The notes beneath the pieces are model-generated. The model was not told the DNA's origin and made no database searches. It was given only the letters and a program-made list of their open reading frames with translations. Below are positions 11,801-15,302 of a DNA stretch of 34,023 nucleotides, piece after piece (the first letter of the stretch is position 1; the number at the start of each line of letters is the position of its first letter). The translations under genes and the position numbers were made by a program. The DNA is from a virus, in the IMG/VR virus record IMGVR_UViG_3300030108_001522, positions 1 through 34,023 of that record; one strand, written 5' to 3'.

Positions 11801-11832
11801 TTTGGATATGTCAGTTGGAATGCTTAATATTG
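11801..11832 (+). promoter_or_regulatory. Promoter of the small-gene cluster
   Basis: TTTG (11801-11804) and TAATATTG (11825-11832) are 20 bases apart; the second differs from TANNTTTG at one base. The spacer contains TGTCAGTTGGA (11809-11819), repeated as TGTCAGTTGGA at the promoter near 13114. Transcription would begin at about 11838, next to the ATG at 11841. Confidence 0.45.
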
Positions 11833-12651: not shown

Positions 12652-12926
12652 AAACAAAAGAAAGTAAAAACGTAATAGACAAAATAAGGTTTGAGGGCAA
12701 AACAAGACATGAAGCCCTTTGTGAATTATATAATACATTATCAAACGAAGATTTTATGCACTTAATAAACATGGCACAAAGTAGATTGTTTATTTGGAAT
12801 CCACACGATAAAACTTGTTATGACTTAGATATGGAAGTTCCGTGTTGTCCTAATGGTGCAGAAATTCAAATCAATATTCAAGAAGATGGATTTAAATTCA
12901 AACCAATGGTTAGTAAAAAAAAATAG
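12648..12926 (+). CDS. Hypothetical protein, last gene before a structured RNA and terminator
   Basis: A 92-residue protein starting MKTKESKNVIDKIRFEGKTR, with a helical first half (HEALCELYNTLSNEDFMHLI) and a C-terminal strand-rich part with CC (EVPCCPNGAEIQINIQ). No family recognised. Its first 18 bases around the ATG (ATATGAAAACAAAAGAAA) are the same as those of the gene at 13939. The stop codon lies at the foot of a possible RNA structure (12924-12985), followed by a terminator at 13012-13055. Confidence 0.6.
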   Translation: MKTKESKNVIDKIRFEGKTRHEALCELYNTLSNEDFMHLINMAQSRLFIWNPHDKTCYDLDMEVPCCPNGAEIQINIQEDGFKFKPMVSKKK

Positions 12927-12985
12927 AGGTTGCTCAACGGAAAAAGTATCTTTAGTGTAGCTATTCTCCGTGCTACACACCTCTA
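12924..12985 (+). ncRNA. Candidate structured RNA with stacked stems and a possible pseudoknot
   Basis: TAGAGGT (12924-12930) pairs with ACCTCTA (12979-12985). Inside it GTGTAGC (12955-12961) pairs with GCTACAC (12972-12978), directly next to the outer stem so the two could stack. The ten-base loop ends in TCCGT (12967-12971), complementary to ACGGA at 12937-12941, which would form a pseudoknot. No T-tract follows, so it is not itself a terminator. I cannot match it to a known RNA class. Confidence 0.45.
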
Positions 12986-13011
12986 AAATACTTATGTGAG
13001 TTGTTTTTATT

Positions 13012-13055
13012 CCCCCTGTGAATTTAATACATAAATTTAATAGGGGGTTTTTTTT
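13012..13055 (+). terminator. Rho-independent terminator
   Basis: CCCCCT (13012-13017) pairs with AGGGGG (13042-13047), with a second inner pairing ATTTA/TAAAT, followed by eight T residues (13048-13055). It ends the transcript of the 11841-12926 genes and lies 26 bases after the candidate structured RNA. Confidence 0.88.
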
Positions 13056-13110: not shown

Positions 13111-13142
13111 TTTTGTCAGTTGGAAATAAATATATATATTTG
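13111..13142 (+). promoter_or_regulatory. Strong Bacteroidota-type promoter
   Basis: TTTTG (13111-13115) and TATATTTG (13135-13142) are separated by 19 bases, an exact match to the consensus. TGTCAGTTGGA (13114-13124) overlaps the -33 element and also occurs at 11809-11819, suggesting a shared regulator. Transcription should start near 13150, 15 bases before the ATG at 13165. Confidence 0.65.
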
Positions 13143-14848: not shown

Positions 14849-14875
14849 TAGAATTACTCATAAGCGTTGTAAACT

Positions 14876-14898
14876 AAAGGGCTTCGGCCCTTTTTTTT
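14876..14898 (+). terminator. Rho-independent terminator
   Basis: AAAGGGC and GCCCTTT (14876-14882 and 14887-14893) flank the stable tetraloop TTCG, continuing into eight T residues (14891-14898). It ends the operon that starts at 13111. Confidence 0.93.
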
Positions 14899-15302
14899 AT
14901 GTCTATACAATTTAACATAATTAAAGTTATGATGCATTATTAATTAATTTATATTAATCTTATATGGCCTTTTATTAATTTTATAATCATGGCCTAAAAA
15001 AATTAAATTGTTGATAATCAGTTAAAAAAGATTAATTAAATGGTGTTTTTTTATTTTACGGCCTATAAATACAAAGAAACATCAATTCTAAGGCCTATTA
15101 GCTTCAATTTAACGGCCCTTAAATTCAATTTAATGGTATTACTCCACAAATAATATAAATGGCCTTATATAGCCTTAAATATAGGGTGTCTGTGCAAACG
15201 GCCAACTATATTGGATATTACTCAACTCTCTATACAAACTATACTTTGCACCTGACAGTTTGCAGTTATCAATAAATTCAATACCTTAGGCAATTCAATA
15301 GT
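14899..15302 (+). other. Long non-coding AT-rich region with repeated GGCC
   Basis: No open frame of useful size is seen on either strand. The stretch is very AT-rich, yet GGCC occurs seven times, at 14966, 14991, 15060, 15092, 15114, 15161 and 15200, usually followed by T or TA. Runs such as TTAATTAATTTATATTAAT and repeated TTCAATTTAA also occur. It could be a replication origin, a packaging site or a protein-binding array. Near its end is TTTGCACCTGACAGTTT (15245-15261), almost the same as at the promoter 3441-3457, and a pair of AATTCAATA repeats (15275-15283, 15292-15300) just before the next gene. Confidence 0.55.

Follow-up and report, generated by a model that had tools for sequence, protein, structure and literature searches.

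A candidate structured RNA with a predicted pseudoknot at an exchangeable intergenic site of flavobacterial-type phages

The stretch of viral DNA that we analyzed (IMGVR_UViG_3300030108_001522, positions 1 to 34,023; hereafter, the window) encodes a 92-amino-acid protein, and a 62-nucleotide (nt) element lies at the 3' end of this gene (12924-12985; Table 1). A sequence-only reading of this DNA had proposed that the element is a structured RNA, possibly pseudoknotted, and that it is more than a terminator. Read directly, the three helices are exactly where that reading had placed them: an outer stem of 7 base pairs (bp), P1; an enclosed hairpin of 7 bp, P2; and a pseudoknot of 5 bp, P3, in which the 3' end of the loop of P2 pairs upstream. 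The strands come in the order P1 5', P3 5', P2 5', P3 3', P2 3', and P1 3', and the three 3' strands are contiguous, with spacers of zero. The separate terminator that had been reported 26 bases further on is also present, as a hairpin followed by eight T's. The element itself is followed by AAATACTT and not by a run of T's, so it is not the G+C-rich hairpin with an immediate T run that is expected of an intrinsic terminator.

Table 1. Features of the element, its surroundings in the window, and a second RNA class found at the same site in relatives
Feature	Position	Strand	Sequence or remark	Basis
Upstream gene, 92 amino acids	12648..12926	+	No Pfam or PHROGs match	
P1, 5' strand	12924..12930	+	TAGAGGT; the upstream gene has its stop codon in the first 3 bases (TAG)	Reading and covariation
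Joining strand	12931..12936	+	UGCUCA; unchanged in 4/4 independent copies, though included in the search pattern	Alignment
P3 (pseudoknot), 5' strand	12937..12941	+	ACGGA; invariant	Alignment
Joining strand	12942..12954	+	AAAAGUAUCUUUA; 1 change among 4 copies	Alignment
P2, 5' strand	12955..12961	+	GTGTAGC; covaries with 12972-12978	Covariation
Loop	12962..12966	+	UAUUC; 1 change among 4 copies	Alignment
P3 (pseudoknot), 3' strand	12967..12971	+	TCCGT; invariant; outside the pattern that retrieved L092 and L093	Alignment
P2, 3' strand	12972..12978	+	GCTACAC	Covariation
P1, 3' strand	12979..12985	+	ACCTCTA	Covariation
Separate terminator hairpin, then eight T's	~13010..13055	+	Stem holds two copies of a AAATTTAATA-like repeat	Reading
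Promoter-like sequence of the next transcription unit	13112..13142	+	TTTGTCAGTTGG ... TATATTTG; conserved in relatives	Sequence
Second RNA class	L003 10280-10395; L010 10068-10155; L004 10280-10399; L102 2059-2182 (-); L104 11540-11673			Sequence

Folded by itself in ViennaRNA, which does not draw pseudoknots, the 62 nt reach -16.4 kcal/mol (z = -2.4) in a fold based on P1. With pairs of helices folded separately, P1 with P2 gives -15.5 kcal/mol and P1 with P3 gives -12.4 kcal/mol. We also wrote a search for the architecture (P1 and P2 of at least 7 bp, P3 of 5 bp, no spacers between the 3' strands, and a length of at most 70 nt). This tight form did not occur on one strand of 69.2 megabases (Mb) of first-order Markov sequence with the composition of the window, which is about 1000 windows' worth. 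A much looser descriptor found 2.8 chance matches per Mb; it is the tight form that is rare, not the topology as such. A competing long hairpin around P2 (AAGTAT...ATACTT) was rejected because it is incompatible with P1 and relies on flanking sequence of the window's lineage.

Relatives came from IMG/VR, from which we retrieved 80 loci with the large terminase subunit. A BLAST search with the element found a copy in L035, whose terminase is identical to that of the window at 346 of 404 positions. Two more copies were found by a DNA pattern of the 5' half of the core, which did not include TCCGT. One is in L092 (terminase 303/404 identical), and the other is in L093, which encodes a primase, a DnaB-type helicase, Sak4, and a family A DNA polymerase. 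At the nucleotide level, L093 resembles the window only across 43 nt of the element (at 95%). Two further patterns, with other parts of the core relaxed, gave zero extra copies.

The evidence for the structure comes from these four independent sequences (the window, L035, L092, and L093), which align without gaps. Changes on both sides were seen for all 8 scored pairs of P1 (for example, TAGAGGT/ACCTCTA in the window, ACAGGTGT/ACACCTGT in L035, and AGGAGGGT/ACCCTCTT in L092) and for 4 of the 7 pairs of P2, where GTGTAGC/GCTACAC is replaced by GTGTAGT/ACTACAC, GTTTGTC/GACAAAC, or GTTTGGC/GCCAAAC, for a total of 12 pairs. Furthermore, 96.3% of the cells are paired, while shuffling the columns gives 75% and slid controls give 30-58%. 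Compensatory changes in relatives, on which the sequence-only reading had staked its claim of a structured RNA, are thus abundant in both P1 and P2. The RNA is real and its fold is conserved, with P1 and P2 shown by covariation, and the view that the element is more than a terminator is supported.

P3 is invariant in the four copies, as are nearly all of the joining bases. Because P3 never varies, covariation is not informative about it, and its support is conservation: TCCGT is kept in register in L092 and L093, while chance matches to the same core pattern lack it. (Exact matches to the core in L091, L094, L096-L098, L100, and L101 were set aside because the remainder of the structure is absent.) Because L092 and L093 were retrieved via their core, the invariance of the core comes partly from selection; the covariation of the stems is unaffected. 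So, of the proposed pseudoknotted fold, P1 and P2 are backed by covariation and P3 by conservation without covariation. We also rejected the terminal repeats of a transposon as an explanation for P1, as its arms vary among the copies, which indicates a drifting stem and not fixed ends.

The core could also be read as a short peptide (LNGKSIFS), with one frame open in all four copies, and L093 has a frame of 17 codons from ATG to TGA. However, in the window, the frame comes right after an in-frame stop and its sole possible start is TTG, and the changes in the stems are mostly non-synonymous yet preserve pairing on both sides. A conserved peptide instead of an RNA is therefore extremely improbable.

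All four of the independent copies are intergenic and on the sense strand. The distance from the preceding stop codon is 0 nt in the window, 54 nt in L035, 6 nt in L092, and 19 nt in L093. In L035, the element follows another gene and is immediately before the counterparts of the terminator and the promoter, and it is absent from the corresponding site in the close relatives L030, L031, and L033. In L092 and L093, the next ATG is about 15 nt after the element. The neighboring genes differ (a 92-amino-acid orphan, a small hydrophobic protein, and a primase), which argues for a gene-independent role. The element is not tied to one gene and is common to unrelated phages.

This placement bears on whether the element might be a ligand-sensing riboswitch for the downstream gene. 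Its size and H-type pseudoknot are like those of small riboswitch aptamers, it has a conserved unpaired core, and in L092, alone among the copies, P1 is directly followed by a run of seven T's. Nevertheless, a riboswitch seems very unlikely because the downstream genes (the orphan, the hydrophobic protein, and the primase) are unrelated and because the next gene in the window is separated from the element by a terminator and a new promoter.

The site after the 92-amino-acid gene provides a comparison among close relatives. Eight relatives of this gene were found in IMG/VR, and when we aligned their 3' flanks, the site was in one of three states. The element is present in the window and in L006 (the contig of L002), and these are identical over the 62 nt. 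In L009 (with L012, the same contig), there is a clean empty site, AAAAATAAAATATTTATG. A different insert, TGTAGGG...CCCTACA, is present in L003, L004, L005, L008, and L010, and also in L007, where it is interrupted by the end of the contig. The downstream terminator is common to all of the relatives that reach that far. Given these three states at one site, the element is an insert and no permanent component of the operon: it is both dispensable and exchangeable.

The alternative insert is a second RNA class, which is unrelated in sequence to the first and yet has the same pseudoknot topology. Its parts are in the same order: an outer stem (TGTAGGGT/GCCCTACA), an upstream TGGAA, a hairpin (GACAGGAT/GTCCTGTC), and TTCCA at the 3' end of the hairpin loop. 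In the outer stem, 4 of 11 pairs have two-sided changes, and a short inner helix is supported by a change from T-A to G-C. P2 and P3 of this class are invariant and the core is nearly so, while loop lengths vary. Some copies hold an extra hairpin-like module, GGTTGGAACGATTGAAAGAGTATCGGATGTCT(C/T)CC, at different positions (L004 10307-10343 and L007 850-887). A core pattern also found the second class in L102 (61 kb) and L104, two contigs that are unrelated and have only this element in common with L017. With a covariance model, it turned up neither in the other searched loci nor in 345 Bacteroidota genomes.

As the nearest terminases from isolates are those of Nonlabens and Riemerella phages, the hosts are probably flavobacteria. 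Among isolate phages, blastn gave no real match for the region, the core, or the second class (a match in Bacteroides phage DAC16 was discarded, as it covers just 27 bases within an annotated gene), and plasmids gave only chance words. Covariance searches for the first class in 345 and 395 sampled Bacteroidota genomes (partly overlapping samples, about 700 genomes in total) found no copy, and for the latter sample an empty answer is weak; those of the matches L113-L122 whose alignments were read were judged to be chance, as P3 and P2 are missing. None of the 4227 families of Rfam 15 reaches its gathering threshold, and the best scores from permissive scans are far below, in agreement with the earlier statement that the element fits no known class. 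ARAGORN's model for transfer RNA (tRNA) and transfer-messenger RNA does not fit the element, and no tRNA adjoins it. Searching the literature for the core as text gave no paper either, but this is weak evidence, as sequences seldom appear in print in that form. The element is best called a new, previously undescribed candidate family of structured RNAs: exchangeable, intercistronic, and carried by flavobacterial-type phages.

Exchange at one site could have another meaning. The element might act in trans, as a phage RNA that binds a host protein and sequesters it. It could, for instance, be a decoy antitoxin that counters a type III-like ribonuclease toxin, or it could act against another RNA-guided or RNA-neutralized defense, and the site would then be a slot for different anti-defense RNAs. 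Several features would suit a decoy: a small pseudoknot whose core hardly varies while its closing stem varies freely, the presence or absence of the element and its exchange with a second RNA class, and its spread among unrelated phages. There are also precedents: pseudo-ToxI is encoded by phage PhiTE (PMC3475682), and Racrs are solitary mimics of CRISPR (clustered regularly interspaced short palindromic repeats) repeats in intergenic phage DNA (PMC10651486). On the other hand, a decoy should resemble a host RNA, and the sampled Bacteroidota genomes yielded no copy, weak as that empty answer is; and the element has neither its own promoter nor tandem repeats. We consider a decoy to be unlikely, if well worth keeping in mind.

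We also made several observations about the surroundings. TGTCAGTTGGAA occurs at 11809 (after the terminase gene) and at 13114 (after the operon of the 92-amino-acid gene), in the window and in relatives; the copy at 13114 is followed by TATATTTG, and these copies look like phage promoters of the Bacteroidota type. Repeats of AAATTYAATA, often paired or in short arrays, are present in intergenic regions and terminator stems in the window (13010-13055 and 15274), in L035 (8220-8380), and in many relatives, with 6 observed on the + strand of the window and 0.8 expected. In L035, these repeats lie on both sides of the inserted RNA element, where they might serve as recombination sites. At 14849-15302, the window has a non-coding stretch of 450 nt, where many short GGCC-containing repeats are embedded in very AT-rich DNA and a hairpin that resembles a terminator (GGGCTTCGGCCC) leads into a run of T's. 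This stretch is possibly an origin or a regulatory region.

We propose that the element, which lies between genes and in the sense orientation in phage mRNA, would fold independently into a compact pseudoknotted RNA. P1 would close the domain, and P2 would stack on it with zero spacer. The 3' half of the loop of P2 would return to ACGGA, so that a single continuous 3' strand pairs with three segments. The grooves of the helix stack would be lined by the joining strands, which are conserved (UGCUCA, AAAAGUAUCUUUA, and UAUUC). Of this model, we infer the P3 pairing, the coaxial stacking, and the groove contacts. Where a class of structured RNAs combines an unpaired core that stays fixed with stems that drift, it has often proved to consist of ribozymes, aptamers, or protein-binding RNAs. 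The least certain step is how the element would act: most likely in cis on a long phage transcript, as a self-cleaving or other processing element that separates adjacent messages or sets their ends.

A dense coaxial structure without 3' spacers that sits right where an open reading frame ends might instead be a cis-acting stability element, that is, a rigid pseudoknot that stops exonucleases or ribosomes at the terminus of a message, as do repetitive extragenic palindromic (REP) hairpins or viral exonuclease-resistant RNAs. In L092, P1 leads directly into the seven T's, so the RNA may end there. However, a plain hairpin would suffice for this role, and about 22 invariant unpaired bases in divergent phages demand more; also, in L093 and L092, a further gene is within about 15 nt. 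Overall, we view a stability element as unlikely, though it is, along with the decoy, one of the two chief competitors of processing in cis.

A cis-acting RNA that cleaves itself or otherwise processes phage mRNA is our best guess, held tentatively and with less than even confidence; we prefer it because the context resembles that of the self-cleaving ribozymes of phages. Several points weigh against it. No known ribozyme model matched in the Rfam scans. Almost none of the 24 joining and loop bases vary, whereas pistol has 10 highly conserved nucleotides, and such near-invariance would better fit an RNA that binds a protein or a ligand, with the caveat that the exact core pattern used for L092 and L093 inflates it. 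Also, the terminator 26 nt further on in the window leaves no second gene on that message to separate. A broader proposal is that two unrelated and undescribed classes of pseudoknotted RNAs, self-cleaving or otherwise active, share one topology and the same exchangeable intergenic slot and move between unrelated phages as autonomous cassettes; this is possible, and we regard it as rather doubtful. At 62 nt, the element is quick to make and test, and the empty sites, the swapped second class, and the copies in unrelated phages are natural experiments. Self-cleavage would make it a new ribozyme class, and a decoy function would point to a slot for RNA-based anti-defense in phages.

How does the element compare to known RNAs? 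The window segment GCTCAACGGAAAAA (12932-12945; GCUCAACGGAAAAA in the element) is equal at 13 of 14 bases to 2421-2434 of 23S ribosomal RNA (rRNA), GCUCAACGGAUAAA, at an E-value of 0.13 against E. coli rRNA, at which chance is possible; the remainder of the element has no match. In rRNA, too, a CGGA is paired with a UCCG close by. We treat possible rRNA mimicry as a lead only. Like type III antitoxins and pseudo-ToxI (PMC3475682), the element is a small phage-encoded pseudoknot. In contrast to them, it is a single copy in the phage without tandem repeats, it is closed by an outer stem, and it has no Rfam match; type III antitoxins are tandem pseudoknot repeats beside a toxin gene, and we found no toxin-like neighbor of the element. 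Like the Racrs (PMC10651486), it is a small RNA that stands alone in intergenic phage DNA, but it is larger and pseudoknotted. (No CRISPR-repeat family of Rfam matched within the element; dedicated databases of CRISPR repeats were not searched.)

Pistol ribozymes have stems, a pseudoknot, and few conserved nucleotides, and they are found near phage genes (PMC4604425). The element is similarly short and phage-associated, with stems, a pseudoknot between a hairpin loop and a joining strand, a conserved unpaired core, and variable stems. In pistol, however, the loop of the P1 hairpin pairs with the junction between the left shoulders of P2 and P3, while the element's loop pairs upstream, inside the closing stem, and circular permutation cannot yield that order. 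Hammerheads in phages occur beside single genes or short blocks of genes of varying identity, which suggests the processing of long transcripts (PMC3088659), and over 96% of theta ribozymes that are not associated with tRNAs are in the sense orientation, mostly in non-coding phage DNA (PMC10879173). The element has no hammerhead core, no double-pseudoknot order as in hepatitis delta virus (HDV), no adjoining tRNA, and no Rfam match; what it has in common with these hammerheads and HDV-like theta ribozymes is that it is small, on the sense strand, intergenic, patchy in its distribution, and without a fixed gene.
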